From Frankia sp. R82 (GTDB lineage: Bacteria; Actinomycetota; Actinomycetes; Frankiales; Frankiaceae), in assembly GCF_023716925.1 (NCBI RefSeq), contig NZ_JAMQQG010000010.1:1-46331 (forward strand): a stretch of DNA of 46,331 nucleotides, read 5' to 3'. Within the stretch, counting starts at the first letter, position 1. Each line of letters begins with the position of its first letter. Of this stretch, positions 40,877 to 46,331 are shown piece by piece. The translations under genes and the position numbers were made by a program. The notes beneath the pieces were generated by a model. It searched no databases, was not told the origin of the DNA, and was given only the letters and a program-made list of their open reading frames with translations.

Positions 40877-41613
40877 GTGCCGCAGAACAACGAGGTCCGG
40901 TCGGATGACGAGCCTGATCCGTTCTACGGGCTCGTACTTGACGAGGACTTTGTTCGGGGGGCGACGGCATTCGAGCCGCCGGCCAGAACCAGGGCCGCGA
41001 TCGCTCGTTTCGGCTCCGCAAACGCCACTGCACCTCCTTCATCACCTCCTATCTTGGGTACTCCCTCGATCCCGTCGGCCGGTTTGCTCCCAGCACCATC
41101 CATCCGCTGCACACCCGTTGGGATGCGGGTGACCGTCACGTCGTCTGCGGTCTCAGTGTCCGTTCGTCCCTCCACAGCGTGCTGATGCCGGAGTTCACCG
41201 GGCAGGTGCACGGCGCCGATCAGGCGCTGGTCTTCCCCGCCGGTACCTGCTTCCGCCGCGACGAACAGGGACTGCAGCAGGAGGTGAACTGCGACCGGCC
41301 GCACACCGACCAGAGCGTGGGCCCGGCGGCCCTGGCCGGCCTGCCCGGTAGTGAGCTGCCGTCCCCGTCGGAGTTCGACCGGATGGCCGCCGCGGCCTGT
41401 GCGCCACTGCACGCCCCGTACCTGCGTCAGTCCCGCTTCGGTGGTGCGACGGTGACTGCCGGCTGGCATCTGCTCAATGCGGAAAGCTGGCGGGCCGGCA
41501 CCCGTTCCATCACCTGCCTCGTCCGCTTCACCGATGCGGCGGACCAGCCGAAAGAGGTGACCGGCCGGTTCACCCCAGGCGCTGTCACCGAGCCGGGCAC
41601 CGTCGCGACCTGA
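40877..41613 (+). pseudogene. Frameshifted actinobacterial membrane protein gene lacking its TM segment
   Basis: GTG 40877, after GAGGAG, opens a frame with DDEPDPFYGLVLDEDFVRGA and ARTRAAIARF. This is the standard N-terminus of a conserved Streptomyces/Frankia family of anchored proteins. The matching C-terminal part appears in another frame from about 41041: YLGYSLDPVGRFAPSTIHPL, HTRWDAGDRHVVCGLSV, through CFRRDEQGLQQEV to the TGA at 41611-41613. The transmembrane helix that should join them is missing, so a deletion plus frameshift occurred around 41010-41040. A truncated soluble C-terminal part could start at ATG 41182, but the native protein cannot be made. Confidence 0.65.
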
Positions 41614-41983
41614 TCATCGCGACCTGGTGTCCGTCCATGGTGGGCCGCATCCCACCATGCCGCCCCCGCACCCCGCGTACCCCGCACCGGGCCATCGCCG
41701 CCCGAACCTCACCGCACGCAGTCAGATCCGCCGGCCGATCGGCGCCGATGGGTCCTTCTACCGGGGTGAAACGAATATTTCTTGGTCTCGAGCCCGGTAG
41801 AAGGGCCACAAAGATTGACACGCCGAACGCGACACGCCCAACATCGGTTACTCACGGCGACATTGGGTCGGGTTGTCTCGTCCAGAGGCTGGTAACGGTC
41901 CGATTCGACACCGCCGCCCGAGCCCAGGGCTCGGGCGGCGGTGGCTCGGCGGACGAGGGGCCGGGTTTGGTGGGAACTACCGG
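41614..41983. other. Convergent intergenic region with a long hairpin
   Basis: No gene is recognised. The hairpin at 41909-41943 is listed separately. Confidence 0.5.
41909..41943. terminator. 17-bp palindromic terminator between convergent genes
   Basis: Arms 41909-41925 and 41927-41943 are perfectly complementary around one base; in RNA the central bases form the loop. It lies 41 bp beyond the stop of the flavoprotein-TPR gene (41984) and could serve both directions. Confidence 0.75.
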
Positions 41984-44662
41984 TTACTCGGCCGGAGACG
42001 GGTGCCCGGCCGGATGGTCGGCGCGCAGGTGGGTGTGCAGGTGGGCGTCGCGAGGGGAGCAGCGGCGGTGGAGGCGGTTCTGTAGCAGGGACTGGGCTGT
42101 GCCGGGCCGTCCGGCCTGGATGGCGCAGTAGATCGTGGTGTCCTCGACGATCTCGCGCTGAGCGGCGCTGCCGCCCAGGCGCTCGACGCCGGACAGCGCG
42201 GTCAGCGCATCGGTCGCCCGGTCGGGATCGCCGAGCACCAGGTGGATCAGGGCATCGGCCAGCGGTGCGACGGTGTCGGTGAACACGGTGTTGCTGCGGG
42301 CGGCCGCGGACCGGCGCAGTTGCGCGAGTCGCTGGCAGTCGCCGGTGGCGGCCAGGGCGATGGCCGCGTGCAGCCCGACGAAGGGCGTCGGCGGGTTCAC
42401 GAGCAGATCGCCGGGGACGGTCGCCAGCACCGGCCCGAGTTCCACCGACGTCCAGGTGCCGGCCGTGAAACCGCGCCACAACAGCGACGCCGAGTCGATC
42501 AGCGCTCGGACGCCGGCCACGGACGGCGGCGCGAGCTGGGCGCGGTACCGCGCCCGGACCGCATTGTCATCGCCGAGGGCGAGCTCGTGCATCGCCGCAT
42601 GCCAGGAGAAGTGCGCCCGATGCGACGAGTCCGACCCGCAGGTCGAGATCCAGGCATCCAGCCAGGCGAGCCCCGCCTCGTGGTCGCCGGTCTCGAAGTG
42701 GACGTGGGTCTTGGCGTGGACGGCATGCCCGGCGGTCGGTTCGACAGCCAGCGACAGGGCGGCGAGCTCGGCGGCCTCGTCCCAGCGTTCCTGCTCCTGG
42801 CGGGTGAAGGCGAGCAGACCGCGGTACCACCAGTCGTCGCGGTAGACGGGGGCGAGCCCCTCCACCAGTGCCCAGGCCTCCGCCGGGAGTTCCGTCGCGC
42901 CGCTGAACGCGATGGTCGGCACGGCGATGCTGACAGCCAGGGCGTCTTCGGGATAGGCCTGGATGTAGCTGAGCAGCGCCGCCGCCGAACCGGCGCTGCC
43001 CGGCTCGTGGATGCGGGCGGCGACGACGTCGATGAAGCGCTGTTCCCGCTCGTCGGCCCGTCCGGCATGGCGTTGCGCTTCGCGCAGGGCAGTGGTGACG
43101 TCGACGTCGGCGCCCCATTCGGCGCCGAGCAGCGCGAGCACCGCCTGCCCGAGGGCGAACTGCGGGTCGGCCGCGACGGCCTCGGCCACCAGGGTCTCGG
43201 CGCCGGAACGCACCCGCAGGATCCGGCCGAGGCCGGCGACATAACGCCCGGCCGCGGCCGGGCTCGCGGTCAGTGGCAGACCGTAGGGGTCGTGCACCCG
43301 TTGGCCGGTTCGCGGCGTCGGCAGGGCGGCCACGAGGGCGCGGGCGAGCGTGGCCGCCTGGCTGCGGATCTCGGGCATCGCCGTGCTTTCCCACAGCTCG
43401 CCGCGTCGCAACGGGCCGATGGCCCAGATCGCCGGGCGGGGCCCGTCGGCGGCGACCAGCTGACCGGAGGCGTCGGTGGCGAATCCCAGATCCAGGGCGT
43501 CCGGGGTGGCCAGGCCCGCGGCGAGCAGGTTCATGACCAGGGGATCGTGGCTGGTGCGCACGCCGGAGCCCGCGCCGGTGCAGTTGAGCACGGCCGCGGC
43601 GACGATGCGGGAGCCGTCGCTGAGCGAGACCTCGACGCCGGCCTCGGTGTCGCGCGCGTCGACGACCTGCGCGGTGTGCACGACCAGCGATCCCTCGGTG
43701 CGGCGCTGCTCCAGCCAGGCGTGGATGGCCGGGTCGACGCGGTGGCGCACCTGGTCCCAGCGGCGCACCGTCGTCGCGAGGAACCTCGACCGGTCGGCCG
43801 TGTCCAGCCGGGACCACAACTCGGTGGTCACCGGACGCAGTGCGTCCACGGCGCGGCGCCAGTCGCCGTCGGCCGCGCGGATGTGCGCGAAGACCAGCCG
43901 GCGGGCCTGGCCGAGGGTGATCGGCCCGGCCGGCAGCTGCGGGGGAGCGAGCGGCGGCGCCGGGTCGGTGGCGTGGGGCAACGGCAGCAACCCGTGCCGC
44001 GAGGTCACGTGCAGGCGCACCCCCGCGCGGCTCCAGCGCTGGGCCAGGTCGGCCATGGTCAGACCCGCGCCGACGAGCAGCACGTCGCTGCCGGCCGGGA
44101 CGTGCGCCCGGGTGTCCTCCCGCCACGGTTCACTGATGAAGCGCGGCGAGCGGGCCAGCGCCGACGGCGCCCACGACGTCGTCGCGGCGCCATGGCCGAG
44201 GGCGAGGACGACGCCGTCAACCGGATGGCTGGTCCCGTCGTCGAGGGTCAGCCGCAGCCGGCGGCCATGCCGGCGGACGTCGGTGGCACGGGCGTACACC
44301 CGCTTGCAGCGCACCCCGTTCGCGGCGCGCAGCGTCTCCTCCAACGTGTGACGAAGATAATCGGCATAGAACTGCCGGGGAGCGAAACCGCCGGCCGGAA
44401 AGTCGACGGCGACGTGCCGACGGAGCCAGCGCAGGAAGTGCAGCGGATCATCGTCGAAGGCGCTCATCTTCGCGGCCGGAACATTGAGCCGGTGCCGCGG
44501 ATCTCGGGTCGAATACGCCAGACCCTCACCGACATCGCCCGGTTCGACGAGCAATATCGTGAATCCTCGGCCGGTAACCGCCGCGGACCTTGCCAGTTGG
44601 GCGGTGGCGAGGCAACCGCTCGCCCCACCACCCACCACCGCGACGACCACCGGCGCACTCAT
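41984..44662 (-). CDS. FAD/NAD(P)-binding flavoprotein fused to a TTC38-like TPR module
   Basis: A fusion of 892 residues from ATG 44662. Residues 1-450 are an FAD-NAD(P)-binding oxidoreductase of the PF13454 type: VVGGGASGCLAT (9-20), the LNVPAAKMSAFDDDP loop (59-73), a second dinucleotide site VLLVGAGLTMADLA (194-207), and VLNCTGAGSG (358-367). Residues 458 to about 850 begin GLPLTASPAAAGRYVAGLGR and contain helical repeats as in TTC38-type proteins (DDWWYRGLLAFTRQEQERWD; HAVHAKTHVHFETGDHEAGL; HFSWHAAMHELALGD). No stop or frameshift lies between them. The tail after about 860 is His/Arg-rich (LHTHLRADHPAGH). The start is set by a coupled leader ORF; in-frame starts at 44722 and 44797 lack ribosome sites. 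Confidence 0.75.
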   Translation of the reverse strand: MSAPVVVAVVGGGASGCLATAQLARSAAVTGRGFTILLVEPGDVGEGLAYSTRDPRHRLNVPAAKMSAFDDDPLHFLRWLRRHVAVDFPAGGFAPRQFYADYLRHTLEETLRAANGVRCKRVYARATDVRRHGRRLRLTLDDGTSHPVDGVVLALGHGAATTSWAPSALARSPRFISEPWREDTRAHVPAGSDVLLVGAGLTMADLAQRWSRAGVRLHVTSRHGLLPLPHATDPAPPLAPPQLPAGPITLGQARRLVFAHIRAADGDWRRAVDALRPVTTELWSRLDTADRSRFLATTVRRWDQVRHRVDPAIHAWLEQRRTEGSLVVHTAQVVDARDTEAGVEVSLSDGSRIVAAAVLNCTGAGSGVRTSHDPLVMNLLAAGLATPDALDLGFATDASGQLVAADGPRPAIWAIGPLRRGELWESTAMPEIRSQAATLARALVAALPTPRTGQRVHDPYGLPLTASPAAAGRYVAGLGRILRVRSGAETLVAEAVAADPQFALGQAVLALLGAEWGADVDVTTALREAQRHAGRADEREQRFIDVVAARIHEPGSAGSAAALLSYIQAYPEDALAVSIAVPTIAFSGATELPAEAWALVEGLAPVYRDDWWYRGLLAFTRQEQERWDEAAELAALSLAVEPTAGHAVHAKTHVHFETGDHEAGLAWLDAWISTCGSDSSHRAHFSWHAAMHELALGDDNAVRARYRAQLAPPSVAGVRALIDSASLLWRGFTAGTWTSVELGPVLATVPGDLLVNPPTPFVGLHAAIALAATGDCQRLAQLRRSAAARSNTVFTDTVAPLADALIHLVLGDPDRATDALTALSGVERLGGSAAQREIVEDTTIYCAIQAGRPGTAQSLLQNRLHRRCSPRDAHLHTHLRADHPAGHPSPAE

Positions 44663-44700
44663 CGGGACCGTCGACAGCGTGTGTGCGGACACCTGGGCAT
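44659..44700 (-). CDS. Possible 13-residue leader peptide coupled to the flavoprotein gene
   Basis: GAAGGAGAT (44713-44705) is the best ribosome-binding site in the area. It positions ATG 44700, which opens MPRCPHTRCRRSR and ends with TGA 44661-44659. That stop overlaps the flavoprotein ATG (44662) as ATGA. The leader is rich in Arg (5) and has two Cys. Such overlaps suggest translational coupling or an attenuator peptide. Nothing besides the sequence layout supports its expression. Confidence 0.4.
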   Translation of the reverse strand: MPRCPHTRCRRSR

Positions 44701-44867
44701 AATGATCTCCTTCCCCGTCCATACCTATCGACCTCAGATTAGGCGCAGATGGGACGGGTGGCGACCCGAAATGACGGAATACGGCCACCCCGGGCACGGT
44801 GGGTCCGCGGGGCTCGGTACTCGAATCTCGTCGGCGGCTGTCGTGCCAACGCGGCGTCCACCGCGGG

Positions 44868-45395
44868 TCAGGTGGTCTGCTCGTGCTCGGCGGCGAGGAC
44901 GGCGCCGGCCTCGGTGCCCTGACTGGGCAGTCGGCGGGTGTCCCCGGCCAGCAGGTCCCGGATCTCGGCGAGTAGCCGGGTCTCGTCGCTGACGGCGGGT
45001 TCGGCCTCGGGCTGCGGGTGCCCGCGCCGGCGCAGTTCGTTGGCCTTGGCGATCGGCAGGACGACGATGAAGTAGACGGTCGCCGCGATGATCAGAAACG
45101 TCACCAGAGCGTTCAGGAACAGGCCATAGCGGAAGACGCTGTGGTTCACGGTGAACTGCAGGCCGGCGAAGTCCGGCTTACCGCCGATCGCGGCGATCAG
45201 CGGGGTGAGCACGTTGTCGACCAGAGCCTTCACCACGGCGGTGAAAGCGGTGCCGATGACGACCGCCACCGCCAGATCGACGATGTTCCCCCGCATCAGG
45301 AACTGTTTGAATCCGCTCAGGCCGGGCCGGATGAGTCGGGTGGTCGGCTCCACGACCCCCCGGCCGTGGTCGACGAATCTCCTGAGGCCGAACAT
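44868..45395 (-). CDS. mscL: Large-conductance mechanosensitive channel MscL
   Basis: A homopentameric tension-gated channel of 175 residues that releases solutes during osmotic downshock. The N-terminal amphipathic helix is followed by TM1 with [20 protein letters not shown] and [20 protein letters not shown], the diagnostic MscL sequence. TM2 is [20 protein letters not shown]. The protein is longer than E. coli MscL (136) at both ends: about 30 extra N-terminal residues and a Glu-rich tail (EIRDLLAG...). ATG 45395 follows GAGGGAG and is preferred over the shorter start at MRGN. It is divergent from the ung gene (182 bp). Confidence 0.93.
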
Positions 45396-45577
45396 GGGTG
45401 CTCCCTCGCCTTGCCCCTGCGACGGGGACATCGGGTCGGGGCGGTGGCCCCGAGAGGTGCCGCGGCCGGCACCGAGTCCCGTTATCTCCGGCCGAAGCGG
45501 GATGTAACCCGGCTGCCGCGCGCTGCCGCGGTCGGTGGCGCCAGGGCCAGGGCCGGGGAGAAGTAGGCTGTGCGGCC

Positions 45578-46255
45578 ATGGCGGCGCAACCACTGCGGGA
45601 CCTTGTCGAGCCAGGCTGGGCGCAGGCCCTGGAACCGGTGGCCGCCCGGATCACGGCCATGGGTGAGTTCCTGCGGGCGGAGATCGCGGCCGGCCGCAGC
45701 TACCTGCCGGCCGGGCCGCACGTGCTGCGGGCCTTCCAGCAGCCGTTCGACGAGGTGCGGGTACTGATCGTCGGGCAGGATCCGTACCCGACCCCGGGGA
45801 TGGCCATCGGTTACAGCTTCGCGGTGGCGCCTGAGGTGCGTCGGCTGCCGGGCAGTCTGCAGAACATCTTCCAGGAGCTGTGCGCGGACGTCGGTGTGCC
45901 GAAACCGTCCAACGGCGATCTGACCAGGTGGACGAGCCAGGGTGTGCTGCTGCTGAACAGGGCGTTGACGACGGCGCCGCGCCAGCCCGGGTCGCACCGG
46001 GGCAAGGGCTGGGAGCAGGTCACCGAGCAGGCGATCCGGGCGCTGGCCGGGCGGGGCAAGCCGCTGGTTGCGATCCTGTGGGGCGCCGACGCGCGCAGCC
46101 TGCGGCCCTTCCTGGACGGCGCCGCGGTCATCGAGTCCGCGCATCCGTCCCCGCGGTCGGCCGACCGCGGCTTCTTCGGGTCCCGACCGTTCAGCCGAGC
46201 CAACGACCTACTGCTGCGCCAGGGTGCCCAACCCGTCGACTGGAGCCTCTCCTAG
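45578..46255 (+). CDS. ung: Uracil-DNA glycosylase, family 1
   Basis: A base-excision repair enzyme of 225 residues that removes uracil from DNA. The water-activating loop GQDPYP is at 66-71 with the catalytic Asp68. The uracil-binding LLLNRALT is at 124-131 (Asn127), and the minor-groove leucine loop appears as HPSPRSA at 189-195 with catalytic His189. Length is typical and all key residues are intact. The ATG at 45578 fits the family N-terminus; the open frame upstream overlaps the mscL promoter region and is not coding. It ends four bases before a run of G that closes the window. Confidence 0.96.

Positions 46256-46331
<76 letters not shown>

Follow-up and report, generated by a model that had tools for sequence, protein, structure and literature searches.

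The window analysed here is a 46,331-nucleotide (nt) stretch of Frankia sp. R82 DNA (contig NZ_JAMQQG010000010.1 of assembly GCF_023716925.1). Towards its end lies a gene whose predicted product joins a flavin-dependent monooxygenase half to a half resembling tetratricopeptide repeats (TPR). A 13-codon open reading frame (ORF), here called the leader, precedes this main ORF, and its stop codon overlaps the main ATG. The features of the locus are the following:

44736..44741, minus strand: -10-like promoter hexamer TAATCT (TANNCT in 15 of 15 orthologues)
44720..44722, minus strand: rival start, an in-frame ATG 60 nt 5' of the main ATG (5 of 15 orthologues)
44707..44712, minus strand: Shine-Dalgarno site AAGGAG of the leader (15 of 15 orthologues)
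44690..44692, minus strand: rival start, an in-frame GTG 30 nt 5' of the main ATG (14 of 15 orthologues)
44659..44700, minus strand: 13-codon leader ORF, MPRCPHTRCRRSR followed by TGA (kept in 15 of 15 orthologues)
44659..44662, minus strand: ATGA overlap of leader stop and main start (15 of 15 orthologues)
41984..44662, minus strand: main ORF, the predicted monooxygenase-TPR fusion of 892 amino acids (ATG at 44662, stop at 41984)
43313..44662, minus strand: N-half, residues 1-450, most likely with an FAD/NADP (flavin adenine dinucleotide/nicotinamide adenine dinucleotide phosphate) class B monooxygenase fold (PF13454; superposition on FzmM 8cp5)
41987..43279, minus strand: C-half, residues 462-892, modelled as a TPR-like alpha solenoid with conserved His/Glu/Trp positions

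The leader is out of frame with the main ORF, and the overlap between the two is four bases. The TANNCT hexamer stands 34-38 nt 5' of the leader ATG in all 15 orthologues, and its position suggests that the mRNA probably begins roughly 27-30 nt before that ATG. The Shine-Dalgarno site of the leader reads GGAGAT in the orthologues, with GGGGAT in L013, and was found in 15 of 15, at a script-scored spacing of 7-9 nt from the ATG.

The orthologue set comprised the 15 Frankiaceae gene copies with a 5' end, and parsimony counts used a tree of 14 genes. The fusion was matched in 9 of 13 Frankia genomes in a genus-level search, and any match to it was found in 20 of 35 Frankiaceae genomes in a family-level search. 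Near full-length Frankiaceae copies numbered 14, including that of G020, which has a stop near its end; the fifteenth copy (L016, from genome G019) is broken downstream with its 5' end intact. G014 held only a fragment, and G027, G028, G032 and G033 gave only weak matches to the C-half.

Comparison of these copies strongly indicated that the leader has been kept as a unit that is translated and overlaps the main start. The ATG, the 13 codons without insertion or deletion, and the TGA with its ATGA overlap were kept in all 15 orthologues. The leader that the first-pass annotation had described, with its stop overlapping the main ATG, is thus real, and its absence from homologues, which would have spoken against it, was not observed among these Frankiaceae copies. 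Length differences of one or two bases fell between the Shine-Dalgarno site and the leader ATG, with none inside the leader. Codons 1, 4, 9, 10, 11 and 13 were invariant (Cys4, Cys9, Arg10, Arg11 and Arg13 in 15 of 15), and codons 2, 3, 5, 6, 7, 8 and 12 varied, by our own reading of the codon lists mostly with a change of amino acid. Codon 8 encoded Tyr in nine copies, Ser in three, and Arg, His and Cys in one each; His6 was present in 13 of 15, with Arg in L007 and Asn in L013. Of the two Cys and five Arg codons noted initially, both Cys codons are therefore invariant, whereas the fifth Arg, at codon 8, is private to Frankia sp. R82. By base composition alone, 12 codons would contain at least two Cys with P = 0.037 and at least five Arg with P = 0.025.

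The bases of the invariant codons were also fixed. Codons 4 and 9 were TGT in 30 of 30 cases and never TGC, and TGT is rare: it makes up 13.8% of the 378 Cys codons counted across 158 called Frankiaceae genes, and 7.2% of the 97 present in the 14 orthologous coding sequences. Codon 10 was CGA (4.6% of Arg codons) and codon 11 CGG in 15 of 15; the third base of codon 13 is set by the overlap itself. Parsimony gave 0.63 changes per site in the leader, 1.71 in the Shine-Dalgarno site and spacer, 2.53 in the promoter stretch and 4.23 in the region above the promoter, as against 0.43, 0.29 and 1.35 at codon positions 1, 2 and 3 of the main coding sequence. Third positions of the leader underwent 6 changes at 13 sites, compared with 1.35 per site at third positions of the coding sequence. 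The leader therefore evolves at about the pace of coding sequence, and its third positions change more slowly than those of the coding sequence. Of 24 inferred leader changes, 22 fell within codons 2-8 and none in codons 4, 9, 10, 11 or 13.

The ribosome-binding signals pointed to the leader as the place of ribosome entry. In the 5 of 15 orthologues for which it was computed, Shine-Dalgarno duplex energy was -8.1 to -11.3 at the leader versus -3.3 at the main ATG, which confirmed the earlier observation that the only strong ribosome site serves the leader. The energy required to open the main start averaged 18.2 kcal/mol (14.1-25.9; 15 orthologues), and that for the leader start 13.7 kcal/mol (10.5-18.5; 15 orthologues). 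The starts of 28 control Frankiaceae genes required 13.6 +/- 3.8 kcal/mol, and three of them were as high as the main-start mean.

From these features, we consider it likely that the leader, as a translated upstream ORF, controls access to the main gene through termination-reinitiation. Ribosomes would load at the leader Shine-Dalgarno site, translate the 13 codons and terminate at the TGA within ATGA, and the terminated ribosomes would begin anew at the AUG that overlaps this stop, the start of the oxygenase-TPR gene. That AUG would be poorly accessible by itself, having no strong Shine-Dalgarno site and surroundings predicted to be costly to unfold. The rare invariant codons (TGT at 4 and 9, CGA at 10) probably pace the ribosome's passage to the stop or are needed for it. 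Somewhat unlikely, in our judgement, is the further step in which a shortage of Cys-tRNA or Arg-tRNA would halt the ribosome before the stop so that the enzyme would not be made.

A close parallel is the uPPE2-PPE2 pair of Mycobacterium tuberculosis, in which PPE2, having no Shine-Dalgarno site, relies on a short upstream ORF joined to it by an AUGA overlap (PMC11260477). Both arrangements have a short out-of-frame upstream ORF with its own Shine-Dalgarno site, an AUGA overlap and a downstream ORF without such a site; termination-reinitiation was demonstrated for uPPE2 (PMC11260477), and the Frankia leader has the same anatomy. Judging from this anatomy and the uPPE2 case, coupling at the Frankia locus is probably obligatory. 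The two differ in that uPPE2, according to the same account (PMC11260477), sits behind a B12 riboswitch, whereas a scan of the Frankia locus gave no Rfam match at the gathering score, and in that the Frankia leader consists of 13 codons with invariant rare Cys and Arg codons. Overlapping gene pairs tested in Escherichia coli and Haloferax were mostly coupled in the results cited (PMC6728339). The Frankia pair shares the ATGA overlap with them, and coupling would be expected; unlike those pairs as described, its upstream partner is a 13-codon ORF and not an ordinary protein gene, and its main ATG has no strong intragenic Shine-Dalgarno site before it (PMC6728339).

A yardstick for what coupling alone preserves came from another short ORF in Frankiaceae, which is coupled to a WhiB gene (PF02467, one copy checked) near cysteine dioxygenase. 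We found it at L224-L239, L242, L244 and L246 among the Frankiaceae cysteine-dioxygenase loci; its Shine-Dalgarno site, start, frame and ATGA were kept in 19 of 19 copies (23 stretches were inspected, 4 of them without a WhiB match). This ORF has 28-33 codons with length differences in threes, and its peptide drifts, carrying one to three Cys near the end in 12 Frankia-genus copies and none in five Parafrankia-genus copies. Relative to synonymous sites, its divergence was 0.81, versus 0.45 for the leader (12 shared genomes). A coupled ORF thus need not keep its sequence, as the drifting WhiB-preceding ORF illustrates, and the leader does keep it. The WhiB gene with this coupled ORF in Frankia sp. 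R82 itself lies in L224, at 3318-2953 on the minus strand. Two Frankia genomes (L225 and L226) carry one more short ORF, VRACDGVGATTRCP, which likewise overlaps the start of this called gene.

Several observations weigh against the coupled-leader interpretation or against parts of it. Among 176 Frankiaceae genes with a clear upstream gap, 19 had a Shine-Dalgarno-led short ORF overlapping some candidate start; 7 of these were this leader and 12 were others, so such ORFs also arise by chance, and the evidence for the leader is its conservation, not its mere presence. Synonymous divergence in the same 12 genomes was 0.212 for the fusion gene and 0.372 for whiB, and part of the conservation therefore reflects a younger, probably transferred gene. 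The changes in the variable codons, being mostly nonsynonymous, carry no classical sign of selection on the peptide. The constancy of codons 9-13 may do no more than protect the region of the main start, and Cys4 taken alone is mildly supported: 0 of the 22 changes in codons 2-8 hit it, for a rough P of about 0.03 by our own arithmetic. A hairpin around the main start, in two variants, was predicted in the 15 orthologues folded, and we rejected it as a selected switch because synonymous recodings were as stable as the native sequence or more so: in nine orthologues, 0.40-0.91 of 300 main-side recodings and 0.80-1.00 of 300 leader-side recodings at least equalled native stability. Only L011 was slightly more stable than the mean of its own main-side recodings. 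The native leader codons make the hairpin weaker than most leader recodings do, and its 65-nt window was ordinary within the gene in the four orthologues profiled. Gating based on RNA structure is not supported as a selected feature by these predictions. A different pairing, between CGCAC of the leader and GUGCG on the main side, was discarded on visual inspection, being broken in L011-L014.

The third-base invariance (TGT, never TGC) means that part of the constraint acts on nucleotides. This raises, as a possibility we would entertain only tentatively, that the leader region is kept at the nucleotide level only, serving either for translation initiation at the main gene or as a binding site in DNA or RNA, and that codons and peptide are irrelevant. 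The fixed third bases (TGT in 30 of 30; CGA10 and CGG11 in 15 of 15) fit such a constraint, as do the slow third positions and our reading that most other leader changes are nonsynonymous. By contrast, a mere binding site needs no leader Shine-Dalgarno site, no fixed ORF length and no stop overlap, and the start, Cys4 and Cys9 stay constant amid the variation of codons 2-8. A nucleotide-level constraint is compatible with coupling and competes only with the codon-sensing step.

Very unlikely, in our view, is that the leader is untranslated and its frame accidental, the main protein starting instead at the GTG at 44692 or the ATG at 44722. The GTG is in frame in 14 of 15 orthologues, and by our own reading the main-frame codons across the leader resemble ordinary GC-rich codons. 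L013, however, carries CTG in place of the GTG, and the Shine-Dalgarno site lies 7-9 nt from the leader ATG and about 15 nt or more, too far, from the GTG. The ATG exactly 60 nt upstream, where 44722 lies, is in frame in only 5 of 15 orthologues (a sixth has TTG at this place, and another has an ATG at 63 nt), and insertions and deletions break the frames. Main-frame changes across the leader, again by our own reading, are nearly all nonsynonymous. In L008, L014 and L016, the frame is closed by a stop 69-81 nt upstream, so that in those copies translation cannot begin as far up as 44797. Neither 44722 nor 44797, the two starts that would have undone the leader, is conserved. The first-pass annotation had let the gene end at 44722; that position is merely an in-frame upstream ATG, and the likely start is 44662.

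The idea that the leader senses charged-tRNA supply found no direct support: the leader has no Cys run, its RNA structure does not beat recodings, and its end has no second exact copy in the genomes compared. Cys occurs at codons 4 and 9 only, with a TGC-TGT pair at codons 8-9 in L013 alone among the 15 orthologues. The 18-base end of the leader had no second exact copy in 34 Frankiaceae genomes; its 12 exact matches were all at this leader, and we rejected a regulon of DNA-identical leaders. With up to two mismatches, matches to this end occurred in 32 of the 34 genomes. Charged-tRNA sensing could be an extra layer over coupling. Because the stop overlaps the main start and there is no second ribosome site, stalling would lower, not raise, enzyme synthesis; the arrangement predicts that any effect of Cys or Arg shortage would reduce the enzyme, the reverse of a classical attenuator.

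A classical attenuator, in which stalling at the Cys or Arg codons would free the main start and raise the enzyme, is accordingly one we rate as highly unlikely. The Cys codons are invariant in 15 of 15, and leaders with Cys runs near the stop precede cys operons or cbs in Mycobacterium and other actinobacteria (PMC1262725). The Frankia leader resembles these in being a short actinobacterial leader with conserved Cys codons; it differs from them, as far as they are described there, in having no Cys run near its stop, in not standing before a cys operon, in being Shine-Dalgarno-led with a stop/start overlap and in its predicted response of opposite sign (PMC1262725). The main gene has no Shine-Dalgarno site to be freed, the structure is no better than that of recoded controls, and positions 41000-46331 gave no Rfam match at the gathering score. 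A ribosome stalled at codon 9 would, with a footprint of the usual size, extend to about the main AUG, and the Frankiaceae copies share no sulfur-related neighbours among the 25 commonest of 107 families. A 2020 study by Canestrari is said to treat cysteine attenuators. In a non-exhaustive search of eight stretches for a poly-Cys leader directly before cysD or cysteine dioxygenase, none of 11 candidates was accepted. Those in L225 and L226 proved to be the coupled ORF before the WhiB gene, and the candidate MRPVTTRPTRVRG[WS]RCCC is an out-of-frame reading within a small called gene.

That the function lies in the 13-residue peptide, which might for instance bind a metal through Cys4, His6 and Cys9 or bind the enzyme, is hardly credible: both Cys are invariant and His6 is present in 13 of 15 copies, but the two replacements of His6 and the freedom of the other positions argue against it, and the third-base invariance would be left unexplained. 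Least credible is an arrest peptide whose C-terminal Arg-x-Arg stalls the ribosome with a macrolide-like drug, since, although (+)x(+) arrest motifs exist and R11-x-R13 is present in 15 of 15, a ribosome halted on the final codons would sit over the main AUG with no second ribosome site to expose, and no connection between the enzyme and drug resistance came to light, no specific search for one having been made.

The protein downstream had been described as a PF13454 flavoprotein fused to a TPR module. The first half of that description is borne out by a PF13454 match at residues 8-157 of the main ORF (expect value, E, 2.7e-41) and the second by a TPR-like fold, whereas Pfam gave no TPR match in the main ORF at E up to 1. 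The AlphaFold model of the fusion, from 44 rows, had a predicted local distance difference test score (pLDDT) of 89.4 and a predicted template modelling (TM) score of 0.59. Its best solved match was FzmM, a Streptomyces aspartate N-hydroxylase (Foldseek E 8.4e-17). The N-half superposed on FzmM 8cp5 with Z 30.2 and a root-mean-square deviation of 2.8 over 439 residues at 22% identity (model range 4-448); PvdA followed with Z 27.9, flavin monooxygenases and reductases such as YpdA (26.0) scored about 26, and SidA reached about 24-25. The model contains the FAD and NADP dinucleotide domains with a helical substrate domain between them that class B requires, and by our own reading of it helices 250-323 follow the second dinucleotide part. 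On the model, the N-half most likely has the fold of a class B N-hydroxylating-type monooxygenase and is not a generic oxidoreductase.

The N-half thus resembles FzmM and the class B N-hydroxylating monooxygenases in superposing over almost its whole length. FzmM is described with three domains and no mention of a TPR domain (PMC10404684), whereas the Frankia fusion has a TPR-like half. Other flavoproteins with two dinucleotide domains, such as YpdA, are not far behind FzmM as matches to the N-half, and a sequence search from the N-half did not recover FzmM. Asn60 is nearly invariant in our alignment (A6) and Arg and His residues are conserved near 269-308; these are candidate counterparts, respectively, of FzmM Asn62, class B enzymes having an Asn (or Asp/Glu) next to flavin C4a, and of the Arg cluster with which FzmM (8cp2) binds L-aspartate.

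For the C-half, a consensus TPR from the Protein Data Bank matched profile positions 618-680 (whole-sequence E 1.8e-5). Modelled alone from 13 rows (pLDDT 88.2), the C-half was an all-helical solenoid, and its Foldseek matches were largely TPR or similar solenoids, with a best E of 7e-6 and TM scores by query length of about 0.2-0.5. By these models, it is a TPR-like solenoid of tandem helical hairpins. The label TTC38-like may fit its His/Trp motifs. Around residues 640-700, H185, H188, H192, E196, H200, H223, H227, H231 and E232 (C-half numbering) are invariant, together with Trp. To judge by the alignment, this His/Glu/Trp set is not what a plain TPR scaffold usually carries, and a metal or catalytic site might be built from it.

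The pairing of the two halves, at first thought unusual, proved widespread: near full-length fusions occur in 34 of 393 genomes of the class (our own row count, with G020 and G384 each read through one stop), and the fusion is also present in Nocardioides and Kribbella. The halves are separate in some genomes, for example G152 and G094. Neighbours were compared through the 25 commonest families of each set. The Frankiaceae copies share no neighbour family, the commonest accounting for 4 of 73 proteins (107 families in all), and these differing neighbourhoods, together with the low synonymous divergence, suggest that the gene has moved within Frankiaceae. The 73 neighbours of 18 Nocardioides and Kribbella copies included 14 acetyltransferases, 10 Asp/Glu racemases and 6 glutamate-cysteine ligase-like proteins. 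Among the 69 neighbours of 15 further fused loci, ABC and hydrolase families led with four each, and no sulfur theme appeared beside these other fused copies among the families compared.

A sulfur context did appear among more distant relatives. In 35 of the 36 loci L083-L118 (one checked with Pfam), a relative of the N-half, a PF13454-type monooxygenase-like gene, lies directly downstream of cysteine dioxygenase; the exception begins at a contig end. These loci, mostly from Rhodanobacteraceae, belong for the most part to a single syntenic clade, which the tree places far from the fused clade, and the gene pair is possibly a two-gene cysteine pathway. At L167, an N-half relative shares an operon with cysteine dioxygenase and a rhodanese-domain protein, and the plasmid copy L161, nested in the fused clade of the tree, stands behind cysC-cysD and a sulfonate-type transporter. 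Luciferase-type monooxygenases made up 5 of 64 neighbours of N-half loci. A sulfur link of the Frankia gene itself was rejected, because the Frankiaceae neighbours share no family; 34 of 34 Frankiaceae genomes, whether or not they have the fusion, carry a single cysteine dioxygenase at another place. The link rests on relatives and not on the Frankia copies, and their sulfur context is a weak hint rather than evidence on the Frankia enzyme itself. The substrate may be a sulfur amino acid, for example cysteine sulfinate, an aspartate look-alike. Were that so, the leader might act as a feed-forward substrate gate, the rare Cys and Arg codons of an obligatory coupled leader restricting synthesis of a sulfur-amino-acid oxygenase to times when charged Cys-tRNA, and hence cysteine, is plentiful. 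Such a gate, which we regard as unlikely, would mirror the cysteine attenuators in reverse and would work by termination-reinitiation in place of an RNA-structure switch.

Outside Frankiaceae, we saw no similar leader in 36 loci from other genera (at least two pairs of these are the same gene, L071 matches the N-half only and L033 has no candidate start). As far as seen in these sequences, the leader appears to be a lineage-specific device of Frankiaceae only. The leader script flagged 4 of the 36. In two of these, L030 (also L159) and L035 from sister Streptomyces, an ORF of 49 codons, unrelated in sequence to the Frankia leader, runs up to the main start and closes with TGATG; their peptides are dissimilar, and that of L035 contains five Cys, two of them adjacent. 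We regard the remaining two, L028 (6 codons from TTG) and L071 (an ORF ending 11 nt before a candidate start), as noise. In the Nocardioides loci L053-L070, the sequence just 5' of the fusion contains a conserved, AT-richer element whose arms form an inverted repeat (TAGTCAA...TTGACTA in L058). By eye it overlaps the likely promoter and looks like an operator, and the palindrome script found nothing there at its threshold. In the Streptomyces loci L029 and L034, an inverted repeat seen by eye, TTGTTCATCGACATAGTGAACAA, lies about 60-100 nt 5' of the aligned start and is unlike the Nocardioides element; here too the script returned nothing at its threshold.

At the Frankia locus itself, the gene upstream of the leader is an mscL homologue (PF01741). 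PADLOC gave no result, and the palindrome script returned nothing at its threshold. In L009, the promoter stretch (AACGTTCTGTC...) is present in tandem duplicate 5' of the leader, as judged by eye. An unbroken run of about 73 G closes the contig at 46259-46331 of the window and is most likely a sequencing or assembly artefact. Among the open-licence papers listed in searches on Frankia and actinobacterial leaders and upstream ORFs, none dealt with this gene.

Taken together, these results give the likely true start of the oxygenase-TPR fusions in Frankiaceae, which would stand even if sensing fails, and gene finders may wrongly extend these fusions to 44722 or 44797. The leader is a well-delimited, conserved and probably coupled unit in nitrogen-fixing symbionts, and if a dependence on Cys or Arg proves true, leader control would gain a positive-sign, amino-acid-gated mode.

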